The position numbers and the translations under genes are program-made. DNA of 41,182 nt from a virus: IMG/VR virus record IMGVR_UViG_3300031999_000070, positions 1 to 41,182 of that record. One strand, given 5' to 3'. Position 1 is the stretch's first letter; every line of letters begins with the position of its first letter. Positions 3,991-35,923 of this stretch are shown in pieces. Below the pieces are notes generated by a model. That model searched no databases, had not been told where the DNA came from, and was given only the letters and a program-made list of their open reading frames with translations.

Positions 3991-4022
3991 AATTTCCAAC
4001 CTTAATATATAGATGATTATTG

Positions 4023-4028
4023 TATAAT
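4023..4028 (+). promoter_or_regulatory. Candidate -10 box upstream of the 4050 gene
   Basis: TATAAT lies 22 bases upstream of the ATG at 4050, in the 59-base gap after 3990. The -35 region is a poor match (about 4000-4005), so this is a weak call. AGAGGATAAG just before the ATG is a good ribosome-binding site. Confidence 0.35.
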
Positions 4029-4049
4029 CACATTTACAGAGGATAAGCC

Positions 4050-4622
4050 ATGTCTTTCTTCCACATAGAGTCAGAAATCGCTCAGAAATTATTGAAGCGA
4101 TTTGCTAAAAAATTATATATGATTGATTCTCCCAGGTCTGATTGGCAGGTAGTAAGAGGCTTGGGTAATATACACGATCGTCAAAGATTCTTTAAAAATT
4201 TTATGGTTACTAAGGCCATACATCTTCCCACAGAAGACCCAATTTATGCACATCCTGGACAACATCAAATAGAAATAGAACGTAAAATGTTTCCAGATTC
4301 AGATGTTGAACTGTTTGCTACTATAATTTCATTATCAGACATGCGTAATTTAGGCGTCTTTCACAGTGTTATTGAAGATCCCACTAGCCCAGAAATTTCA
4401 CTTGCCAATTTTATGGATTCAATTGACGATTTAATGAAAAGTAATGCTGGTAGTGTTGCTAAAGAAAACGAAGAAAACGAAGAAAAATGTGATGTTTGTA
4501 AACGTATGAAAGATGTGGGAGAAGCCTGTTGGTTCTGTGGTGGAGGTAAAGAGACAGTTAAGCCATCGGGGCTGGACCTGTCCCGTACTGTATATTCTTC
4601 GAAGAAATCGAAGAAATTATAG
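4050..4622 (+). CDS. Hypothetical protein with C-terminal four-Cys zinc motif
   Basis: 190 residues. The N-terminal two thirds (helical, HIESEIAQKLLKRFAKKLYMID...) are not recognised. A Lys/Glu-rich linker leads to CDVCKRMKDVGEACWFCGGG, a CxxC-x9-CxxC cluster typical of a zinc ribbon, and then a Lys/Ser-rich tail. It has its own ribosome-binding site and possibly its own promoter. It converges on and overlaps by six bases the minus-strand gene 4617-5123. A nucleic-acid or protein-binding role is plausible from the zinc motif only. Confidence 0.65.
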   Translation: MSFFHIESEIAQKLLKRFAKKLYMIDSPRSDWQVVRGLGNIHDRQRFFKNFMVTKAIHLPTEDPIYAHPGQHQIEIERKMFPDSDVELFATIISLSDMRNLGVFHSVIEDPTSPEISLANFMDSIDDLMKSNAGSVAKENEENEEKCDVCKRMKDVGEACWFCGGGKETVKPSGLDLSRTVYSSKKSKKL

Positions 4623-5123
4623 GCCCATCAATAATTCAATAATTGTCTTGGCAGTACCACTATTAACAATTTGACGAAATTCAGCCTTAGATGTCTTTAC
4701 TGTAATCTCTGCTACCTCATGAGACCTAGTCAGTGGCACGGTGTTGAGACGTGCCCCCAGCTTCTTTGGTGGTCTGCGACGATACAGGTGTAGTGCACGC
4801 CGCAAACACTTAACCGTATTACGACCAGCACTAGGTCGAATTTTCCTAATCTCTTCCAAAATTTGTTTGTCGGTGTGCCCACTTGTGAACAGTTTTCGCA
4901 CTACCTTCATTTCTGTCTTGGTGTAGTGTTGCTTCCTGCGTATGGTGTGTTGTACCCCATTCTTCCTCTTATACGCGTAATAAAGACTAATTGCTGCTCC
5001 TCGTGTCAAAGCTGGTCTCCACGATGTAAGTAGCTTGTGTAAATCGTCTACCTTCCCATTGGCAACTACTGTTGAAATTTCCTTCTTCTGGTCATCACTG
5101 TATAGCTTGTTGATCTGCTCCAT
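4617..5123 (-). CDS. Probable DNA-binding protein with two Myb-like HTH repeats
   Basis: 168 residues with ribosome-binding site AGGAGGT just upstream of the ATG on the minus strand. Two segments look like Myb/SANT three-helix units. One is LYSDDQKKEISTVVANGKV...LLTSWRPALTRGAAISLYY (about 7-50). The other is YTKTEMKVVRKLFTSGHTDKQ...IRPSAGRNTVKCLRRAL (about 66-115). The tail is basic (YRRRPPKKLG). It is likely a transcription regulator or nuclease-type adaptor. A 13-base palindrome overlaps its presumed promoter, which would suit autoregulation. The call rests on pattern similarity and is moderate. Confidence 0.6.
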   Translation of the reverse strand: MEQINKLYSDDQKKEISTVVANGKVDDLHKLLTSWRPALTRGAAISLYYAYKRKNGVQHTIRRKQHYTKTEMKVVRKLFTSGHTDKQILEEIRKIRPSAGRNTVKCLRRALHLYRRRPPKKLGARLNTVPLTRSHEVAEITVKTSKAEFRQIVNSGTAKTIIELLMGL

Positions 5124-9584: not shown

Positions 9585-11564
9585 ATGAGCCAGCTCACTG
9601 AACTTCTTAAGGATATTGTACAAACTGAACATGGGCAGTGGATGCGGTATACGTATCTATCAGTCCTTGGACATGGTCTGCACACCGATACTCTTAAGGA
9701 ACATTTTGAAGAGCATGCACAAGATGAATTGCGACATGCCAAATTAGTTTCTAGGTGGATTGTTGATTTGGGTGATGCTCCACCTACCCAAATCCCATGT
9801 ATTGAGCAGCTTGCAGCTTCTAGTGAAGAATCGATTCAGTGGTTACTTAAGGCTGAGTTAGATGGAGCAAATAAATATCAGATAGCCATGGAATTAGCTG
9901 AAGGTATTCATGGGCTTCAAAATGATATTGGTGATATTTTATCAGAAGAACATGAACATATTTCTGATCTAATGAAAATGTTGTCACAGTTCAAAGATAA
10001 GACCGATGATGCTGTGACATTGGTTGTGGTAGCTTCAGCTTATAATAAATTTGTTAGAAGTGGATCATTTAAAAGATTTGCGTCCCACCACAAAATAGCC
10101 GGTGCATTAGAAGACTTTATTAAAGAAGAATTACAATTGGCATGGGACAAATATGAAATGGATTATACGCCTGAAAAAGGGCGTCAATATGTTGAGGATG
10201 AAGCAAAGAAACACATCCAAAACTTATATAATCGTCTGACAGTGGAAGAAGATCAATCTGCTAAACCAGCATTACAATTCTATACTAATTTATATAAATA
10301 TGTTGTAGATCCTAAAGTGAAGGGTGGCTGGACAACATACCATAAGTCGTTCTGGCCCGACTATGAACAATGGTTACGATCTGATATTGAGCAAGAAAAA
10401 ACTAAGCCAAAGACATTTGAAGATGTTATGACGATAGTAGACCCAGCATTTGCTGTTCCCACCCCCAAAGCTGCACCTAAGAAGATGTTGATGACTCCTA
10501 AGCAGAGACTTCAGCAACAAGAGCAAGAGATGTTGAAGCAAATTCGTGAAAAAGAAGAACAGGGAGTACCAACTTCTGAAGAAATTGAAGAAGAAGCTAA
10601 AGCTACTGAAGAGGCTGAACTTCAAGAAACCATGGGGTTTGGTGAGCCAGTAGTAGAACAATCTACCCTTACTAAGACCAGAATGGAAGAACCAGAAGTT
10701 AAACCAGATGATGAATTAATTAAGCAGCTTAATAAAATATTGAGTTTTTCATCTAAAAAATACGAAGACACTGAACAAAGAGATATGGTTATTGGTAAAG
10801 CATTGGCACCAGTTTATGTTAGTAGACACGATCAATTTATGCTCTGGACTCAACAACTTAGTTCTGATTTACGACAATATGTTATGACCATCATATCTCC
10901 TTATGTTTATCAAATAGAAAGCAAGGGAGATATTGGAGAAGGATCAGAAGAAGTGGTGAGTAGGCCACCAGTCGAGATGGAAGAGGAAGAGGCTAGACCA
11001 GAGGCACCATTTGAAGAGGAAGAGAAGGAAGAGAAGGAAGAGAAGAAAAACAAGAAAGAAGAAGAAGAGGAAATTGAGCCAGCAGAAGAACTAGAGACAG
11101 AACGCGATGTTGATATTGAGTATGAGAAGGCCATGGAAGCGCCATCGATGGCGAAATCCAAGCCTACTTTTGGTGATATAGACTGGGCCAATATTCCTTC
11201 TGTGGAAGTCGAAGAGACCAAAGAACCAGAGGCCAAGACCACAGAACGTAGACCTGTAGAGACTTTGAGTAGTAAGATACAGGTTTGGGATGCCTTCAGA
11301 GGGTTAGAAGGTAAGGGACAGAAATTTGCTGTCGGTATTGGTGACAGAATCAGAAATATGACACCAGATGAAGAATCAGTTCCGCCTCCTGGAAGACCAG
11401 GTAGAACTGAAGCTACTGTTGGTACTATTCAAGGTATTAATCCTTCTGGTTTAATTACTGTGCGTACTGATGATGGTAAAGTTCACGAATGGAATCCAGA
11501 TATTGATATTCTGGAAATTGATGCTAAAGAAAGATCTAAATACGTTTTACGTCAAGGCAAATAA
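9585..11564 (+). CDS. Ferritin-like diiron domain fused to a large acidic phage protein
   Basis: 659 residues. Residues 1-133 form a four-helix ferritin-like domain with Glu15, Glu48/His51 (ELRH), Glu91 and Glu122/His125 (EHEH). This is the ligand order and spacing of bacterioferritin (E18, E51, H54, E94, E127, H130); the haem Met position is Leu. Residues ~150-275 and ~370-440 are helical. Between them and after them are Glu/Lys-rich linkers (~460-510). The C-terminal ~75 residues look like a KOW/SH3-like barrel (VGIGDRIRNM, ATVGTIQGI, GLITVRTDDGK). Ferritin-like proteins oxidise or store iron, or carry other diiron chemistry. Position among packaging genes suggests a virion protein; its activity is inferred. 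Confidence 0.75.
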   Translation: MSQLTELLKDIVQTEHGQWMRYTYLSVLGHGLHTDTLKEHFEEHAQDELRHAKLVSRWIVDLGDAPPTQIPCIEQLAASSEESIQWLLKAELDGANKYQIAMELAEGIHGLQNDIGDILSEEHEHISDLMKMLSQFKDKTDDAVTLVVVASAYNKFVRSGSFKRFASHHKIAGALEDFIKEELQLAWDKYEMDYTPEKGRQYVEDEAKKHIQNLYNRLTVEEDQSAKPALQFYTNLYKYVVDPKVKGGWTTYHKSFWPDYEQWLRSDIEQEKTKPKTFEDVMTIVDPAFAVPTPKAAPKKMLMTPKQRLQQQEQEMLKQIREKEEQGVPTSEEIEEEAKATEEAELQETMGFGEPVVEQSTLTKTRMEEPEVKPDDELIKQLNKILSFSSKKYEDTEQRDMVIGKALAPVYVSRHDQFMLWTQQLSSDLRQYVMTIISPYVYQIESKGDIGEGSEEVVSRPPVEMEEEEARPEAPFEEEEKEEKEEKKNKKEEEEEIEPAEELETERDVDIEYEKAMEAPSMAKSKPTFGDIDWANIPSVEVEETKEPEAKTTERRPVETLSSKIQVWDAFRGLEGKGQKFAVGIGDRIRNMTPDEESVPPPGRPGRTEATVGTIQGINPSGLITVRTDDGKVHEWNPDIDILEIDAKERSKYVLRQGK

Positions 11565-26046: not shown

Positions 26047-28079
26047 GTGACAGACAAAAAAGCAATGACGATTTTACATCGTCTCTTGAATCTATAGTTG
26101 CGCCTCTTCTCAACAAGAGCATCGCTAGAAAGATAGACCTAGAAGAAGAATATTTAAAACATCCAGCGCCAAATATTATTGAGTTCGTTACTTCTTCTCA
26201 ATTTCTAAATATCCCGTCAGCGTATAAGCACACCAGGCAATACCAAGTGCTTAGAGATATGTTTCAATGTAGATGTCCTATCTGCAATTCTGCAAAACCA
26301 GAAGCAGTAGACTGTTGGGATAAAGGTAGAGAATATTTAGAATCAGAAACTTTATTGTCTTGGTCCGTTACACAAAATGATGATGTGTGCCCAAAATGTG
26401 GCAGTACACGTCGTGAGTTATTAGAAGATAAAATAATTCATAAATACAATCAACTCCATGGTATTGTTGGGATGCGTGCGGGAAAGACCGCCACCGTTGG
26501 AATGATTGGAGCGTATGTTGAACATATGCTCATATCTATAGCATTAAATCAAGAAGACCGCAGATTGGCCACATATTTTGGTCTGCTTCCTAAGCAACCA
26601 TTTGAAGTTACGTACATCGCATCAACCGAAGTTCAGTCCAATGACACTATTTGGGCTTATTATCGATCATTTCGTATAGATTCACCTTGGTTTAAGCGTT
26701 ATGTTGGGTGGGTTAAAGAACAAGAGAAAGCTCAAGATACACCTCCAGGAATGGAGGGATGGGAATACAAAGAGACCACCAGAGAAATAGAAAATGAGCA
26801 CATAGGTGTAAAATTTAATTCTAAAAACTCTAACTCGTCTGGTCTAGCTGGTCGTACTCGTATTGCTTCCTTTATTGATGAAATTAGTAGATTTAAACAG
26901 ACAGAATCATCCATGAGTGCTGAAGAAGCATATCGTGTAATGGAGAATTCTCTACGCACTGTTAGGTCTTCTGTCTTGAACCGAGATCTTATCCCTTGGA
27001 TGGGACTTATTGCTTCTATTTCGTCTCCAATATCGGTAGATGATAAGGGGATGGAGCTTTTATATCAGTCTCCCAAGCTAAAGAGTATGTATGCGTTTCA
27101 TTATGCGACCTGGGAATTCAATCCAGATGAGAAGCGCGAATATTATAATGAGGCATATGAGAAGGATGCGGTTGGTACAGAACGTGATTTTGGTGCTAAA
27201 CCTCCACTTGCCGCCAATCCATTAGTTACAAATCCAGAGAAATTTGAAGAACGAGCGGTTGATTCTAAGTTACTTCCCACAGCTAAGCTTGAAATTATAC
27301 CATTCATTGATAAAACCGGACAAAGATACCATAAAGCCCAGATGGTTGAATGTCAGCTTAAACGAGATGTGGCTAGGTATGTTGTGTTTGATGCTGGGCA
27401 TAAATTCGACTCATTTGCTGGTGCATGTGGACATTTAGAAATTATGCAGCTGCCAGATGGTACACAGGAGTATGTGTCGGTAGTTGATTGGCTCTTGCGT
27501 ATATTACCATCAAATGGTATGGAGGTGTGGTTTGATTCAGCAGTTGATCTAATAGAATTCCAACTAAAACATCAGAAGATTGCACAAGTTGAATTTGATC
27601 GTTGGAATAGCGTTACACTTATTCAACAGATTAGAAATCTTGGTGTGCGTGCTGAACAAAAATCAATAAAAGCTCCTGACTATATAAAATTCGTAGCCGA
27701 TTCTCATATGGGCAGGGTACGATTGTTTCCTAAAGAAGCAGGTGATGACGAATTAGAGGCACCATTTAAATCTGCCGCTGCTGTTGGTTTGTACGAAATA
27801 GAAAGATTGGAAAGATCTATTGACGACGCTCGAATTTATAATCCACAGAAGGGTGAACGACGTGGATATAATTCAGATGACGTTGCAGTAGTATTAATTC
27901 ATTTACATAGAATGCTTCAAGATTCACAGGTGATGCCCACTGGTGCTAAATTACGTTCCAGAGAGGCCAGGCTTAAACGTGAAGAAGTAGGATCTCAACA
28001 GTGGCAAATGGGTCAAATGGGAAGGGTATTTAGTCCCAGCAGGCTTGGGCTTCAAGGTACAAATGGGAGACGCTGGTGA
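26043..28079 (+). CDS. terL: Terminase large subunit (ATPase/nuclease) with inserted zinc ribbon
   Basis: 678 residues; TTG start in a TTGA overlap. It powers DNA translocation into the prohead and cuts the concatemer. Walker A is GMRAGKT (143-149) and Walker B is IASFIDEI (Asp279, Glu280). The C-terminal RNase H-like nuclease has acidic residues at Asp450 (VVFDAGHKFD), Asp498 (WFDSAVD) and Asp612/613 (YNSDDVAV). Between the N-terminus and ATPase, CRCPIC (76-81) and CPKCG (116-120) form a four-Cys ribbon unusual for TerL. Its stop overlaps the next gene (GTGA). Confidence 0.93.
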   Translation: MSDRQKSNDDFTSSLESIVAPLLNKSIARKIDLEEEYLKHPAPNIIEFVTSSQFLNIPSAYKHTRQYQVLRDMFQCRCPICNSAKPEAVDCWDKGREYLESETLLSWSVTQNDDVCPKCGSTRRELLEDKIIHKYNQLHGIVGMRAGKTATVGMIGAYVEHMLISIALNQEDRRLATYFGLLPKQPFEVTYIASTEVQSNDTIWAYYRSFRIDSPWFKRYVGWVKEQEKAQDTPPGMEGWEYKETTREIENEHIGVKFNSKNSNSSGLAGRTRIASFIDEISRFKQTESSMSAEEAYRVMENSLRTVRSSVLNRDLIPWMGLIASISSPISVDDKGMELLYQSPKLKSMYAFHYATWEFNPDEKREYYNEAYEKDAVGTERDFGAKPPLAANPLVTNPEKFEERAVDSKLLPTAKLEIIPFIDKTGQRYHKAQMVECQLKRDVARYVVFDAGHKFDSFAGACGHLEIMQLPDGTQEYVSVVDWLLRILPSNGMEVWFDSAVDLIEFQLKHQKIAQVEFDRWNSVTLIQQIRNLGVRAEQKSIKAPDYIKFVADSHMGRVRLFPKEAGDDELEAPFKSAAAVGLYEIERLERSIDDARIYNPQKGERRGYNSDDVAVVLIHLHRMLQDSQVMPTGAKLRSREARLKREEVGSQQWQMGQMGRVFSPSRLGLQGTNGRRW

Positions 28080-29932
28080 GAAGAAAAACTAGACAAAAGA
28101 ATTGGCTTGATGCCGAACATAAACGAGCCAAACAGCATAAGGTCATGAGAAGCATAGCTGTTGGTTTAATTCAGGCTACCGAGGATATTAATGCGGCTGT
28201 CAATGTTGTAGACATGCCTAGTGATGGTGAAATCGGGGGTAGAGAAAAACTTGAATTTCCAGAAGAATTTCCTGCTGGCGAACTTCCAGAAAAAGCGAAT
28301 GAGTGTGCTGAGACTTTGTACCATACACCCAGACAAGCAGATAAAGAATCAGAGAGAGGTCAGTCTTTGACGGATTTGACAACTGAAAAACACACAGTAC
28401 GTACCAAACAGAAACTCACCGAACCAGGTCGTTGGTCAGATTCCTATACCAATGAAAACCAGTTTGAAGATACAGATAAATTGGGTGATGCTGATTCATT
28501 AGAGGATGCTGTGTATCCACCATATACTGATGGTATAGGACAACCGAGTCCACGTTATGAAGACACGAACAAAGAAAAACATAATATTGTCGTGCACGCA
28601 GAAGGACAAGAGGCTGATCCAAACCGAGGACCTGGTTACCTTTGGGTCGCGGTTGACCTCGACGGCACGATCCTCGAAATCCCGCCAGAATATCAAGACG
28701 AAGAAGGTAACCATCTTTTTGGAGAGCCTATTTCCGGAGCGAGAGAAGCGTTGCAAGAATTGATGGATAACGATGTAAAAGTTTCCATTTATTCTGCTAG
28801 ACAATATTTTGCTCACGGGCATAAAGAAGAACAAAAATTAAAAGAGGCGATTGAAAATGAATTAACAAACAGCGGAATTCCTTTCACTGAAGTTTATGTT
28901 GGTAAGAAACCACCAGCGCATGTATATGTGGATGACCGCAATGTTCCTTTCGCTGGTGATTGGGATACAGTTTTAAATACTTTACGTGATAAATATATTA
29001 AGAAGACAACAACTAAATCTGCTGGTGATGATCCAGTTAAAGACCAGAAAGACTATCATGGTATCAAGATCAATGTGGAATGGCCAAGAGGATCCATTCG
29101 TTCTTATGAGGGCAATGATACTTATGTTACGCATATGAAATGTGATTATGGGTATGCTCCAGGAATAGATGGTGGTGAAGATGGTGATCTGGATATCTAT
29201 TTAGGAGATGGTGATTCGGATACTGCATATATTCTTGAACAGCTCAAGGACGATGGATCTTATGACGAAGACAAGGTAATGCTTGGCTTTATGTCTGAGG
29301 ATGAAGCAGCCGAATGTTATCTACAACACATGCCAGCACACATGATGGGTACCATTAGAGAGGTACCAATAGAGACGTTGGTAAATGCACTTTATGGTAA
29401 GCCTGAGGATAGACGTGGGCAAGAAGATCAAGTACCATCCGAAGAAATAAATACCACCAAGAAAGCCCAAAGGCCCAATTATTTATTTGTCTATGGTATA
29501 TTGCGTAAGGGTGAACCTTACTATGAGAAATACCTAAAGGATAGTAAATTTATACGTAATGTCAAGACCAAGCCCAAGTACCATCTCATTATTACCCAAG
29601 CTGCTGGTATGGCACCAGGCGAGAATGCAGTAGATGGTGAATTATATGAAGTTCCTGATGAAGTGATGGCCGAAATTGATAAATATGAGCATCCGTATAA
29701 TCGCCAGGAAATAGAATTAGAAGATGGTAGTGCCGCCTATGCTTATTTCACACCTGATGAGATTCAGGATGTGGTAGAAGAAGCTCCTCGCATGAATACG
29801 GGTGATAAGGAATCTTCTGTGTGGCCAGAAGATAAAAATCGAGAGGAAGAATTATTAGACACTGATTATACCAGAGAGAATCGTGACATTGCCAGGGACC
29901 CTACAACTGAGACTATGAAATATAAGGGGTAA
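28076..29932 (+). CDS. HAD hydrolase + pyrophosphatase-like + gamma-glutamylcyclotransferase-like fusion
   Basis: 618 residues; GTG start in a GTGA overlap with terL. Residues 1-180 are disordered. A HAD-like domain (~188-310) has VAVDLDGTI (Asp194, Asp196), YSAR and VYVDDRN (Asp286, Asp287). A domain at ~325-430 (YHGIKINVEWPRGSIRS, CDYGYAPGIDGGEDGDLDIYLG, DEDKVMLGF) matches the phage 'InPase' domain of polyvalent/head-morphogenesis proteins. A third (~465-575) matches gamma-glutamylcyclotransferase/AIG2 folds: YLFVYGILRKGEPYYEKYL and VDGELYEV with candidate catalytic Glu522. Substrates unknown. It is probably packaged or processes nucleotides or adducts early in infection (inference). Confidence 0.82.
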   Translation: MRRKTRQKNWLDAEHKRAKQHKVMRSIAVGLIQATEDINAAVNVVDMPSDGEIGGREKLEFPEEFPAGELPEKANECAETLYHTPRQADKESERGQSLTDLTTEKHTVRTKQKLTEPGRWSDSYTNENQFEDTDKLGDADSLEDAVYPPYTDGIGQPSPRYEDTNKEKHNIVVHAEGQEADPNRGPGYLWVAVDLDGTILEIPPEYQDEEGNHLFGEPISGAREALQELMDNDVKVSIYSARQYFAHGHKEEQKLKEAIENELTNSGIPFTEVYVGKKPPAHVYVDDRNVPFAGDWDTVLNTLRDKYIKKTTTKSAGDDPVKDQKDYHGIKINVEWPRGSIRSYEGNDTYVTHMKCDYGYAPGIDGGEDGDLDIYLGDGDSDTAYILEQLKDDGSYDEDKVMLGFMSEDEAAECYLQHMPAHMMGTIREVPIETLVNALYGKPEDRRGQEDQVPSEEINTTKKAQRPNYLFVYGILRKGEPYYEKYLKDSKFIRNVKTKPKYHLIITQAAGMAPGENAVDGELYEVPDEVMAEIDKYEHPYNRQEIELEDGSAAYAYFTPDEIQDVVEEAPRMNTGDKESSVWPEDKNREEELLDTDYTRENRDIARDPTTETMKYKG

Positions 29933-29971: not shown

Positions 29972-32900
29972 ATGTCAAATAGACTAATTATTCCAGGCAG
30001 CAAATATGGTGATCCCAAAGAACAAGCTAATCATGATCCCACACCACACGGGTTGACGCCTCAGACCATAGAACAACTTCAAGAACGTTTCGAATCATTT
30101 GTGCCGGGTCTTGCCCAGAAGCAGGGATCTGCCTCTAGACAATTCTTTGATGGCATGTTGCCTACTGGTGCAGAACTAGACCCACGCACTCATAAACAAG
30201 CCAACATGCCCACTGGTGTAACCTTTCCTGGTATGGGAAATATGTATGGTGGTAATACCTTAGTTACACCCCAACGTCCCTATCAGCCTGAATTCGAATG
30301 CGAACTTAAAGGTACTCCTGTAGTGATGGCTGATGGATCCCATAAACCTATTGAGCATGTGTTGGTTGGTGATCGAGTAATTGATAAAACTGGTAGAATT
30401 CAAACAGTAGAACGTGCTTGGTGTTCTGGCACACCAGACCAAGTAGTAGAAATTAAATTGTGGGGGAATAAAACATTCTATTCTACACTTAATCATAATT
30501 GGCCTGTATGGGTTTGGTCACGCAAATGTTTATGTGGTTGTGGTCAAGATGTAACTCAGGGCAGATGTTATGTCATAAATCATGGTCCTGGTAGTAATCA
30601 GTACTGTGAGTCTAATCTAGTTCTTGTTGATGGTAAGGGTACTCATTATCATAATCGTCGTTGCATACCTAAAGATTATCAGCCAGTTCAAAAGTTGACG
30701 GCAGATGAGTTGCGAGCTGGTGATTATTTATTAATTCCAAGAAAATTTGATGTTGTAGAACCCAAAATTCCATTGGACCAGGCTAGATTGCTGGGTTATT
30801 ATGTGTCTGAAGGTTGTCCAAACAATAATCAAATTATGTGGAGCTTGGGTAGATACGAAGAAAACACTCTTGCCCAAGACATACTTAACATATGTGCAAA
30901 ATACAACATTGAAGCATCAAAATGCCTTCCTAAGACACGTAATGCTTGTAAGGTGACAACGCGTGGTAGTAATGGCAAGGATCTATGTAAATTATTATGT
31001 TTACATGGACATGAAAATTCCCACCACAAGCGCCTTTCAGAAGAGGTAATGCGTTGGCCTGTTAAATATAAGATTGAATTAATTCGTGGAATGTTTAAGG
31101 GAGATGGATCTCAATATTCAACTAAGACTTCCAAGGACGGATATGATAGTTGGAAGTTTTGTGTCGCTTATGGGACATCTTCCAAAACACTGGCTTCCCA
31201 AACCCAGTTAGTGTTGGCACAGCTTGGAATATATTCATCTATCATTACAATAAAAGCCAAAGTTAGAAAATCCAAGGAAACCGTAATTAATCAGTGTGAA
31301 CATTATAGATTGGCTACTTATGGCTCTCATGCTAAACGATTATCAAAATTGGTGTGGGAAGACGACAATAAATCAATAGAACATGAATCTAAAGAGAACA
31401 AAGAGAGATTCCGTGTTGATGATAATTATATTTATGTTCCAATTAAATCAGTAAAAGTAATCTCAAATAAAGAACCTGTTTATAACCTCACAGTTTCTGG
31501 TGACCATTCTTATCTTGTCGATAACGTTGGTACATATAATAGTCCAGATCGCCAGCAATTCCCAGTTCATCGCATTCTGGCCAATAGATATTGGCGGTTA
31601 TTTCATAAGCTTGATCCAGTAATTGGCAATTGCATTGATATGTATGCCACTATGCCTTGGTCAGACTTTCAACTAACTGGTGAAGGCGTAACTGGATCGA
31701 TTAAAGAATCATATGAATTAATGTGTGAAGAAACACAAATATTGAAAATTCTTGAATATATGGTTAAAGAATTTATGGTTATTGGCGAATGTTGCCCCCA
31801 TAACTTCTTTGATGAGACTAAGGGTATTTGGACATATACAGCATTGCATAACCCAGACCAATTAGAAGTAATTGATGCGCCATTCATAAAAATGGATCCG
31901 GTGGTAGAGTTCATTCCAGATGATAGATTACGCGCTGTATTAACATCAAATAATCATCTCTTAAGAAGAGTTAGGGAGCAGATGCCCCAAGAACTCATCT
32001 CAAGACTAATAGCTAGACAAAACATACCATTAAGCCCAGTAAATATGACTTTTATCCCACGACGCTTGCACCCATATGATACTCGTGGGACTTCTATCAT
32101 TACACGCATGTGGCGAATTTTAATGTATGAGGATAGCCAAAAACCAGGCACTCCAATTACACGACCTGATGGCTCAAATACACCAATTGAACAACTTGTA
32201 CTTGGTGATTTAATACTTGGTAAAGACGGAGACATACAAGAAATCACACATATCTCAGAGAAGCACGCCAACAAGTTAGTTTATATTAAACTTCTTGGTG
32301 GCTGGGAGATGAATTGTACTGCGTCACATAAATGGCCAGTGTTTAGTAAAGATAATCCACATGGAAAATCAATAAAGACATTGGCATCCGACATTAGGGC
32401 AGGAGATTATTTATCAATTCCACGTAAATTTAAACTATCAGAACTCGATAACCTTTCAAATAATGTTATGGCTCGTTTGTTGGGTTATTATGTGGCTGAG
32501 GGTTCTAAAGCCACATTTAATAAAGATGGATACGGTGTTGCGTGGGCATTAAATGTTGATGAAGAAAACACCTGGGCTAAAGACATAGAAAGACTTTGTT
32601 TAGAAGTCGGTTGCAATACCAAAACTTACATTCATAAGTCTGGTTGTATGGTTCGTTCTCATAAGAACGAGAATCGTTGGCTAGCTGATTGGTTATTTAT
32701 TAATGGTGGACAACACACAGCCACCAAACAATTATCACAAATGATTATGGGATGGCCACTTGAGTTAAAAGAAGAATTTATTCGTGGTTATTTTAGAGGT
32801 GATGGGTCATGTGCTGCCTTAACAGGAAGTTTTATGTTCCCTAATGGGGTTTTAAAACATAATGTAAGAGCGGCAACCATTTCAGAAGTTCTTGCTCATC

Positions 32901-35900
32901 AACTACAATTAATACTGGCTCAGCTTGGTATATTTGCTAAAATTAGACCATACCAGCCACCAAATAACGATGGTAAAAACAGAAAACAAATTTATTATTT
33001 AGAATCATCTGGAGAACATGCTGACAAATTAGGAAATTTGGTGTGGGGGCAGGTGTCTATTCCACCAAGAACCATAGGTGACAGACGTAGGAATTCAAAG
33101 GTTATTGTTACTGAAACACATATATTAATTCCTATTATCAGGATACTAATTGAAGAATATGACGGCCTAGTTTATAGTCTTGAAACTTCTGGTGATCATT
33201 CTTATCTTAATGCCAATGTTGCTACTTACAATTCGATATACAATGCGTCTATCGCTACTGCTCGTCGTCATGCTGGTCCCATTAAAGTTGCTAAACTTGG
33301 TAATCCACAAACTGGGTGGATCCCATCACCAGAACACGAACAAAGATTATTACAATTACTTTCCCAGGCCGAACTCGATGTTAATGCATGGTTAGTATAC
33401 CATTACGGCATCCAATTTGAGATGGTTGGTACTACTGATAGGATTATGAATATCAGTCAGCATCATGAAGTTATTGAGCGCATTAAGCTAATTGCTATGG
33501 GGATTAGCAAATGCTTTGTATATGATACTCTCATAAATATGGCCGATGGTTCTTATAAGACTATTCAAAATGTAAAAATTGGAGATAAAATTTTAGACAA
33601 GAATGGTAAGATTGAATCGGTCACTGATGCCTGGGAAGATGGAATCCCAGAACAATTAGTTGAAATAACCACTAAGGGTGGTAAGACATTTATTGTGACG
33701 CCAAATCATAAATTTCCAGTATGGGCTTGGCCTAGAACCTGTGCATGCGGTTGCGGCAAACCATTAAATAAAATTGGTAGGTTATATGCCCATAATTATT
33801 CTCCAGATATAGAAGTGGAAAGTAAAAGAGTCAATGAACTAACAACAGGACAAAAACCTAAACGTATCCCAACTGATTATGATCCATTCATTGAATTAGA
33901 AGCTTCACAAATAAACCCCGGTGATTGTTTATTAATACCTAGAAAATTTGAATCTGTTGATCCTAAAATACCGCTATTGCAGGCCAGGTTATTGGGCTAT
34001 TATGTGGCTGAGGGTCACATTATAAAAGGTAAACATTTTGGTGGTAAGGCCCACGGTGACGGGTTTGAATTTTCTTTAAATAAAAAGGAACTTACAACAT
34101 GGGCTGAAGATATTAAGACTATATGTAATGAGCTTGGTCATGAGATGCATATACGTCCATCAACATTGGAATCTGGCATTAAAGTAAGCACTCAAGCTGA
34201 AGTATCAATACCGTTAGCAACTTGGTTGAGCAAACATGGTGGTGAATATGCTTCAACTAAGCGTTTATCAGAAGAAGTAATGTATTGGCCAATTAATTAT
34301 AAATTAGAACTTATACGTGGAATGTTTAGAGGTGATGGAACTCAATATTGGTCAGACACAGCTGAAAAAGTTAATGGAGAATTTTCAAGATCGTTATATG
34401 TTAAATATGCAACCACATCTGATGTGCTGGCCAGACAGGTGCAATTAATTTTGGCCCAATTGGGTTTTTATGCAACTTTAGAACATAAGGAGGCATCGGG
34501 ATTTGGAGAATTACCCCAAACAAATCCAACTACACGAGGTAGACACGCCAGGCAATTATCAGAATTAATTTGGGGTAAAGCTAGTATGGCCAATGATTAT
34601 AAAATTGATTCTAATATAGACACATTTAGAGTTGATGACGAATATGTATATATTCCAATTAAAAGCATCAAACTAATACCGAATACTAAACCTGTTTTTA
34701 ATCTGTCAGTTACTGGATCTCATAGTTATTTGGCAGACAATGTTGCTTCATTAAATAGTTTCCTCCACGGGGAAGTTACATATGCCAGTGCGGCTACCGG
34801 TCTTTCAGTATTCTTACAGCGTATGAAGTCATTACGCAATTTCTTTATTACAACATGGTTGTTGCCCAAGTTCTTTAAGCCAATCGCTAAGATTAATGGA
34901 TGGATTAAACGAGATCAAGGTGAATTAGTCCATCGATATAGAATTAAGAGATCTCAAAAAGAACTTGAAATGGAAAATAGGTATATTGTTCCCAAACTTG
35001 AATGGGAGAAACAATTAGATAGCGCTGTTAATAGTGAATTAGTTACAGCCATGGGTGCTCTTGAGGGACTTGGTATTAAATTCTCCAAGACTAGTAAATA
35101 TGCGGCTGTTAATAAGAAGTATGAAGATGAAGTATTAAAGATTAAGGAAGAGCAAGAATTCGAACGTAAGATGGTAAACTTTATTCCTCCAGAAATGCAG
35201 GCGGGTTCTACGCCTGCAGCTCCTCCTGGTGGTGGTGGCATGCTCCCCCCTCCACCTCCACCAGGAGGTATGCCTGGTGAGGTTCCTCCAGGTGAAATGC
35301 CTGAAGCTGGCATGGGTGAAGCGCCACCGGCTGGTGGAGCTATGCCACCAGCAGCTACCGCCGATAAAGCTGGTGCGGGTGGAGGCACTGGCCCATCTGG
35401 TAAGAAAGACCCAGCAGTACGGGATACTGAATCGTCGTTGTGGGATCAAAAGGGACGATATGGTAATTGGGCAGCATCAGAAATTACTGAATTGGCTGAC
35501 CTAATTAAAGAGGGACACACAGATTCACCTCTTTGGGGTGATTTAGACAGTGTAGAATTTAGAAAGGCTATTAATGCTGGTGATTCTTTTGATGTGGTAG
35601 ACCTAATAAGAGAACATCTTGAAGAGCATGGTTATCCACAATCAGACATTAAAGACTTGAGAAAGATTTTAGATCAAGAAGGTATTTTAAAAGATATAGT
35701 TAGCGGTGATGTTGCTAAACTACGTGAAGTAGAAACTAAGATGGACGACTCAAGTACTCTTCTTAATGATGAAGAAGCCATGACCAGATTATCTTCTTAC
35801 TTAGATAACGACAATGCTGAAATAATTAAAACACGTGATGATTTAGGATTGGTATTGGGCCATGGTAATACGCAAGATGGTCCATGGAGTGGTGATATTA

Positions 35901-35923
35901 GTGACATGCTAGAGAAGAAATAA
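29972..35923 (+). CDS. Portal protein precursor carrying three inteins
   Basis: 1983 codons from ATG 29972 (GGGAGA upstream; a TTG 21 bases earlier is not needed). Removing three inteins leaves a 788-residue protein. The exteins read SPDRQQFPVHRI, ANRYWRLFHKLDPVIGNCIDMYATMPWSDF, SIYNASIATARRHAGPIKVAKLG and SFLHGEVTYASAATGLSVFL, patterns of portal proteins of large myophage-type phages. The portal is the dodecameric channel at the head vertex where terminase docks, and the gene lies two genes after terL. After ~residue 1730 a Pro/Gly/Met-rich linker (35200-35400) leads to an acidic helical C-terminal domain of about 170 residues. All three splices must occur for a normal portal. Confidence 0.88.
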   Translation: MSNRLIIPGSKYGDPKEQANHDPTPHGLTPQTIEQLQERFESFVPGLAQKQGSASRQFFDGMLPTGAELDPRTHKQANMPTGVTFPGMGNMYGGNTLVTPQRPYQPEFECELKGTPVVMADGSHKPIEHVLVGDRVIDKTGRIQTVERAWCSGTPDQVVEIKLWGNKTFYSTLNHNWPVWVWSRKCLCGCGQDVTQGRCYVINHGPGSNQYCESNLVLVDGKGTHYHNRRCIPKDYQPVQKLTADELRAGDYLLIPRKFDVVEPKIPLDQARLLGYYVSEGCPNNNQIMWSLGRYEENTLAQDILNICAKYNIEASKCLPKTRNACKVTTRGSNGKDLCKLLCLHGHENSHHKRLSEEVMRWPVKYKIELIRGMFKGDGSQYSTKTSKDGYDSWKFCVAYGTSSKTLASQTQLVLAQLGIYSSIITIKAKVRKSKETVINQCEHYRLATYGSHAKRLSKLVWEDDNKSIEHESKENKERFRVDDNYIYVPIKSVKVISNKEPVYNLTVSGDHSYLVDNVGTYNSPDRQQFPVHRILANRYWRLFHKLDPVIGNCIDMYATMPWSDFQLTGEGVTGSIKESYELMCEETQILKILEYMVKEFMVIGECCPHNFFDETKGIWTYTALHNPDQLEVIDAPFIKMDPVVEFIPDDRLRAVLTSNNHLLRRVREQMPQELISRLIARQNIPLSPVNMTFIPRRLHPYDTRGTSIITRMWRILMYEDSQKPGTPITRPDGSNTPIEQLVLGDLILGKDGDIQEITHISEKHANKLVYIKLLGGWEMNCTASHKWPVFSKDNPHGKSIKTLASDIRAGDYLSIPRKFKLSELDNLSNNVMARLLGYYVAEGSKATFNKDGYGVAWALNVDEENTWAKDIERLCLEVGCNTKTYIHKSGCMVRSHKNENRWLADWLFINGGQHTATKQLSQMIMGWPLELKEEFIRGYFRGDGSCAALTGSFMFPNGVLKHNVRAATISEVLAHQLQLILAQLGIFAKIRPYQPPNNDGKNRKQIYYLESSGEHADKLGNLVWGQVSIPPRTIGDRRRNSKVIVTETHILIPIIRILIEEYDGLVYSLETSGDHSYLNANVATYNSIYNASIATARRHAGPIKVAKLGNPQTGWIPSPEHEQRLLQLLSQAELDVNAWLVYHYGIQFEMVGTTDRIMNISQHHEVIERIKLIAMGISKCFVYDTLINMADGSYKTIQNVKIGDKILDKNGKIESVTDAWEDGIPEQLVEITTKGGKTFIVTPNHKFPVWAWPRTCACGCGKPLNKIGRLYAHNYSPDIEVESKRVNELTTGQKPKRIPTDYDPFIELEASQINPGDCLLIPRKFESVDPKIPLLQARLLGYYVAEGHIIKGKHFGGKAHGDGFEFSLNKKELTTWAEDIKTICNELGHEMHIRPSTLESGIKVSTQAEVSIPLATWLSKHGGEYASTKRLSEEVMYWPINYKLELIRGMFRGDGTQYWSDTAEKVNGEFSRSLYVKYATTSDVLARQVQLILAQLGFYATLEHKEASGFGELPQTNPTTRGRHARQLSELIWGKASMANDYKIDSNIDTFRVDDEYVYIPIKSIKLIPNTKPVFNLSVTGSHSYLADNVASLNSFLHGEVTYASAATGLSVFLQRMKSLRNFFITTWLLPKFFKPIAKINGWIKRDQGELVHRYRIKRSQKELEMENRYIVPKLEWEKQLDSAVNSELVTAMGALEGLGIKFSKTSKYAAVNKKYEDEVLKIKEEQEFERKMVNFIPPEMQAGSTPAAPPGGGGMLPPPPPPGGMPGEVPPGEMPEAGMGEAPPAGGAMPPAATADKAGAGGGTGPSGKKDPAVRDTESSLWDQKGRYGNWAASEITELADLIKEGHTDSPLWGDLDSVEFRKAINAGDSFDVVDLIREHLEEHGYPQSDIKDLRKILDQEGILKDIVSGDVAKLREVETKMDDSSTLLNDEEAMTRLSSYLDNDNAEIIKTRDDLGLVLGHGNTQDGPWSGDISDMLEKK
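30299..31540 (+). mobile_element. Intein 1 of portal (414 aa, LAGLIDADG)
   Basis: Begins Cys (CELKGTPVVMADGS, block A) and ends GDHSYLVDNVGTYN before extein Ser. Block B is TLNH in YSTLNHNWPVW. Two LAGLIDADG-type helices, LLGYYVSEG and LIRGMFKGDG, indicate a homing endonuclease domain. A CLCGCGQ cluster sits in the splicing part. The C-terminal residues are Tyr-Asn rather than His-Asn. The host junction is EFE/SPDRQQ. Confidence 0.92.
32135..33232 (+). mobile_element. Intein 2 of portal (366 aa, LAGLIDADG, Ser1)
   Basis: Begins Ser (SQKPGTPITRPDGS), aligning position by position with the Cys1 of inteins 1 and 3. Block B is CTASHKWPVF. Endonuclease motifs are LLGYYVAEG and FIRGYFRGDG. It ends SGDHSYLNANVATYN before extein Ser. 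It lacks the CxCGCG cluster and is the shortest of the three. Host junction YED/SIYNAS. Ser1 splicing through an oxyester is rarer than Cys1. Confidence 0.9.
33512..34756 (+). mobile_element. Intein 3 of portal (415 aa, LAGLIDADG)
   Basis: Begins Cys (CFVYDTLINMADGS) and ends TGSHSYLADNVASLN before extein Ser (SFLHGE). Block B is VTPNHKFPVW. Endonuclease motifs are LLGYYVAEG and LIRGMFRGDG. CACGCGK matches the cluster of intein 1, and the stretch LLIPRKF.SVDPKIP..QARLLGYYV is nearly the same as in intein 1, so these two are close relatives. Penultimate residue is Leu, not His. Confidence 0.92.

Follow-up and report, generated by a model that had tools for sequence, protein, structure and literature searches.

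A phage portal gene with three in-frame class 1 inteins, part of a clade-wide pattern of portal insertion sites

Anatomy of the portal gene and its inteins

The window analyzed here is the whole stretch of 41,182 nucleotides of IMG/VR record IMGVR_UViG_3300031999_000070, and this 41-kb window is probably part of a larger genome, since relatives reach 160–200 kb. The portal gene (29972..35923, plus strand), coding for the ring through which DNA enters the virus head, is a single open frame of 5.95 kb and 1983 codons, running from the ATG at 29972, closely preceded by a ribosome-binding-like GGAG, to the stop at 35923. The ORF matched the portal family phrog_16240 in PHROGs (2.1e-61) and LAGLIDADG_3 (5.7e-34, three stretches), Intein_splicing (4.7e-24) and Hom_end_hint in Pfam; portals annotated as such in phages G and Myrna also match the window portal. 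All of its parts lie on the plus strand, and insertion sites are numbered by the residues of the spliced window portal. Extein 1 (29972..30298, residues 1–109) is followed by intein 1 (30299..31540, 414 aa), which sits between residues 109 and 110 (YQPEFE and SPDRQQ). Extein 2 (31541..32134, residues 110–307) leads to intein 2 (32135..33232, 366 aa) between residues 307 and 308 (ILMYED and SIYNAS), and extein 3 (33233..33511, residues 308–400) leads to intein 3 (33512..34756, 415 aa) between residues 400 and 401 (AMGISK and SFLHGE). Extein 4 (34757..35923) holds residues 401–788 and the stop. A sequence-only reading of this DNA had described three complete LAGLIDADG inteins inside the portal gene, and its bounds, lengths, share of the precursor (1195 of 1983 codons) and spliced length (788 aa) were all reproduced exactly. 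When the window's record was searched with intein profiles, every match fell within the portal ORF.

Several other genes of the window were recorded on the side. Between TerL and the portal, 28076-29932 encodes one chain combining a phosphoheptose-isomerase-like stretch with PF18823 (inorganic-pyrophosphatase-like) and PF06094 (gamma-glutamylcyclotransferase-like domain), and the feature at the same place in Virus Rctr197k is 6.5 kb long. A 659-aa protein at 9585-11564 has an N-terminal ferritin-like domain (PF00210, 4e-10), and two tRNA-Trp genes with an identical CCA anticodon lie at 47-121 and 1197-1269.

Position 1 of inteins 1, 2 and 3 is Cys, Ser and Cys, respectively, and the +1 residue is Ser in each. 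The block B TxxH motif reads TLNH, TASH and TPNH, respectively. The two LAGLIDADG motifs are LLGYYVSEG and LIRGMFKGDG in intein 1, LLGYYVAEG and FIRGYFRGDG in intein 2, and LLGYYVAEG and LIRGMFRGDG in intein 3, and the C-terminal ends are GTYN, ATYN and ASLN, respectively. In an alignment of 20 sequences of the family, T63 and H66 of block B, H403 (the block F His), N414 and the LAGLIDADG acidic residues E171 and D269 were invariant, and Pfam LAGLIDADG_3 was found in 20/20 inteins. The penultimate His was absent from all 20 and is replaced by Tyr, Tyr and Leu in inteins 1–3. This His was treated as a usual, not a defining, class 1 feature, and is not required for the assignment because phage class 1 inteins lacking it splice; in one of them the replacement of Gly by His slowed splicing (PMC5050341). 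By residues and motifs, all three thus appear to be class 1 inteins with a LAGLIDADG endonuclease.

Intein 1 was modelled with AlphaFold2 (pLDDT 91, pTM 0.90), and the model was compared with known structures and matched TliVMA (7qsu; Z 30.6, 3.7 A over 314 residues), PI-PkoII (2cw7; Z 27.8), PI-SceI (Z 23–24) and gp41-1 (6riz; Z 19.7), which points to a Hint fold for the modelled protein. The predicted build of Hint domain plus LAGLIDADG endonuclease is shared with TliVMA, PI-PkoII and PI-SceI (Z 23–31), but identity to them is 17–21%, the window inteins lack the penultimate His, and two of them, inteins 1 and 3, have an additional CxCxC insert. This CxCxC...H stretch follows block B at approximately 30527-30610 and 33740-33830 and resembles a zinc knuckle. 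Most of the subfamily has it, but not intein 2 or the relative of intein 2 in contig L011; in the intein 1 model it has lower confidence (pLDDT about 63–69 at residues 91–120).

Empty sites and the survey of portals

The exteins were aligned with intein-free portal homologues, and the junctions proved exact at 109, 307 and 400. Intein-free IMG/VR relatives run ungapped across all three sites (63–86% identity over 416 aa), as does Virus Rctr197k (KX853510, from a DAMO/AAA enrichment culture; 63.5%), so that an exact empty site is present in homologues for all three inteins. We also examined whether the intein segments might be normal portal domains present in intein-free relatives, and they are not. 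The same three positions are occupied by inteins in other phages. An assembly chimera or artefact was judged unlikely because the frame is open, the junctions are exact, and an independent second contig (L037/L092) also carries three portal inteins. The three-intein arrangement is not chance.

For the survey, a portal stretch spanning no insertion site was used as query, which avoids a bias to intein bearers, while the alignment behind this query did include intein-bearing portals found via their inteins. The set contained 56 portals at ≥37% identity, including one genome contig, and 46 after removal of near-copies. Inteins were carried by 13 of these 46: seven portals had one, four had two and two had three, and the remaining 33 had none. 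Eight sites were used (109, 307, 310, 312, 321, 358, 400 and 409/410), or nine if the L042/L102 insertion between residues 409 and 410 is counted separately; no insertion site was conserved throughout the 46 portals. Sites lay in more conserved stretches than random sites did (p 0.0046). The second three-intein portal, IMGVR_UViG_3300035698_004085 (L037/L092), uses sites 109, 358 and 410. Its site 410 intein (L037:6070-6699) is 210 aa long, has Asn where the block F His would stand, and is the only one lacking an endonuclease among the portal inteins found. Relatives of intein 2 occupy site 307 in L011/L059 (63% identity) and L012/L068, and a relative of intein 3 occupies site 400 in L054 (62% identity). 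The L054 contig is filed under an Actinomycetes MAG and is likely phage; in its portal, site 321 carries an intein too. Searches of viral contigs with intein 1 or intein 3 alone returned no close copy.

Neighbouring genes are also affected. Members of the same intein subfamily are present in a TerL homologue (L038) and in the gene after the portal (L025); in L019 and L023 that next gene has more distant inteins. With inteins in TerL, the portal and the next gene, the whole head and packaging block is therefore targeted. As a separate observation, one ORF of another phage contains two inteins (L052:2702-3853 and 4007-5056); the gene resembles that of L047/L049, and L047 and L053 apparently also have two.

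Three inteins in one portal had been called exceptional in the sequence-only reading, partly on the ground that phage inteins usually lie in other types of gene. The rarity stood, at 2 of 46 dereplicated relatives; the contrast with other genes did not, as portal inteins occur in 13 of the 46 and were already known in mycobacteriophage cluster C1 (PMC5050341). The cluster C1 phages (Bixzunavirus) ET08, Jedediah and JayJay have inteins in the homologous portal protein, as the window does, but their records show one intein per portal gene instead of three, and these end in KN or HN where the window's end in YN, YN and LN. Their records give two portal sites, at mycobacteriophage residues 115–116 and 504–505. 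Sharing of these sites with the window was considered and rejected, since the alignment puts them elsewhere, and tblastn with window inteins 1 and 2 gave no mycobacteriophage match. Several inteins in one packaging gene are also found in the TerL of cyanophage Mic1 (PMC7156551) and of crAss-like phage OBYQ01000140 (PMC7886860), though there the gene is a terminase and the inteins are two, not three. The haloarchaeal MCM helicase, with four intein sites (PMC10643990), resembles the window portal as a conserved gene with several neighbouring sites, each having its own site-specific intein; it differs in being an archaeal replicative helicase and not a virion protein, and the portal clade has eight or nine sites with at most three occupied in any one gene. 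In the open-access literature searched, we found neither a phage gene described as carrying three inteins nor a portal family described with eight or nine insertion points. A triple insertion into one gene is unusual, a rare accumulation of a known element type and part of a clade-wide pattern.

Portal fold, intein history and the +1 residue

The portal fold was modelled on an intein-free relative (L055) in place of the spliced window portal, and sites were placed on this model via the ungapped alignment. The model has a well-predicted core (block means about 66–96 across residues 120 to 540) and matches the portals of lambda (8xot, Z 19.7), P7-1 (11bp, Z 19.1) and G20c (4zjn, Z 18.6). On it, site 109 lies directly ahead of the core, sites 307–321 fall within the long helix 294–320 or at its end, site 358 is in a loop, and sites 400 and 410 are within the conserved GISKSFLHGEVTYAS stretch adjoining helix 408–446. 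An unspliced chain should be unable to reach the portal fold, and the earlier claim that the 788-aa portal can form only after three splices is supported.

On the intein tree, the inteins of site 358 form one clade (99/97), as do those of site 400 (100/100), whereas none of sites 109, 307, 312 and 410 resolves as a single clade. Window intein 2 joins the site 307 intein of L059 with support of 100/100, and window intein 1 joins the site 109 intein of L062 with weaker support (81/90, 47% identity). Site labels change 9 times over the tree, against a shuffled mean of 19.5, and 0/200 shuffles were as low. Inteins thus group mostly by site and not by phage; the three of the window come from three site lineages and look separately acquired. 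Same-site inteins are about 40–63% identical, and pairs within a site show intein/portal identities of 47/69, 63/79, 62/70, 59/79 and 46/59%. The site families are therefore old, within-site intein divergence roughly tracking portal divergence; for the same reason, together with the low same-site identity, recent transfer is not evident. Homing and loss may both have shaped this history. On the portal tree, intein presence changes at least 10 times and the bearers are scattered; L055–L058, the four nearest to the window, are intein-free.

Splicing requires a nucleophile at +1, and homing copies flanking sequence. At site 307, Ser was at +1 in 3/3 bearers, while Ser, Thr or Cys was found in 4/41 other portals (usually Ala; p 0.0026), and at site 358 Ser was present in 4/4 bearers versus Ser, Thr or Cys in 6/39 others (usually Ala; p 0.0017), both p values coming from Fisher tests that treat related phages as independent. 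The association of Ser with an intein at 307 and 358 supports working splicing. Selection for splicing, co-conversion, or entry only at a pre-existing Ser could each give this pattern, and each would imply a splicing-competent intein.

Interpretation and significance

We consider it very probable that the portal gene was separately invaded at three conserved sites by homing class 1 inteins, which are spliced out to give the 788-aa portal. The gene anatomy, the exact empty sites, the site-specific families, the scattered distribution and the link with Ser at +1 for two sites are direct observations on which this reading is built. After translation, Cys1 or Ser1 would attack, the +1 Ser would accept and the terminal Asn would cyclise, probably with help from the block F His, since Tyr or Leu here takes the place of the usual penultimate His; three such self-excisions would leave a normal 788-aa portal. 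Each endonuclease would cut the intein-free portal alleles of co-infecting relatives, and the intein would be copied in with flanking sequence, maybe including the +1 Ser codon. In this phage clade, the portal gene would then have long been a hotspot for inteins, which use eight or nine sites in it.

A mainly vertical history is a variant of this reading that differs on history only: an ancestral multi-intein portal passed down, most lineages lost their inteins, and little homing goes on at present. Some of the data agree with old inheritance followed by many losses, as inteins of one site have diverged roughly in step with their portals, but the portal tree needs at least 10 gains or losses, the invariant endonuclease acids would not be expected after long disuse, and just one portal intein, that of L037/L092 at site 410, was found without its endonuclease; we regard this history as rather unlikely. 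Local triplication, in which one invading intein was copied to two more sites of the same portal gene, could draw on the single subfamily that the three window inteins share (39–45% identity) and on inteins 1 and 3 being the most similar pair among them. Yet the tree groups each of them with a same-site intein elsewhere (intein 2 with L059 at 63%, intein 3 with L054 at 62%, and intein 1, more weakly, with L062 at 47%), so triplication is disfavoured and seems highly improbable, while at the root of the subfamily an ancient spread from site to site is likely.

The sequence-only reading had further suggested a timing or quality step in head assembly. On this view, splicing of the three inteins would be slow or conditional and would serve as a timer or checkpoint, with rings of portal assembling late or only if the cell is healthy. 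A non-His penultimate residue can alter the splicing rate (PMC5050341), and phage Mic1, with two inteins in its TerL, has been the subject of a similar, untested proposal (PMC7156551). Against this, 33 of the 46 relatives are intein-free, the four closest (L055–L058) included, no site is clade-wide, and the endonuclease motifs are retained. Sporadic presence together with retained endonuclease motifs is what homing parasites show, and the timing role is therefore unsupported; we give it very little probability. Equally doubtful is the more specific idea that slow or conditional splicing without the penultimate His delays ring-competent portal, which, if true, would let stacked homing parasites set the onset of head assembly.

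In conclusion, a build-up of homing inteins at conserved positions in an essential packaging gene remains our preferred reading. The inteins explain long and odd portal ORFs, which annotation may break or miss. The clade forms a natural series with none, one, two or three inteins, same-site families and an Ala-to-Ser difference at +1. This series is useful for studying the coexistence of several homing elements in one essential gene, possible mutual blocking of homing between neighbouring inteins, and what several needed splices cost a virion protein.
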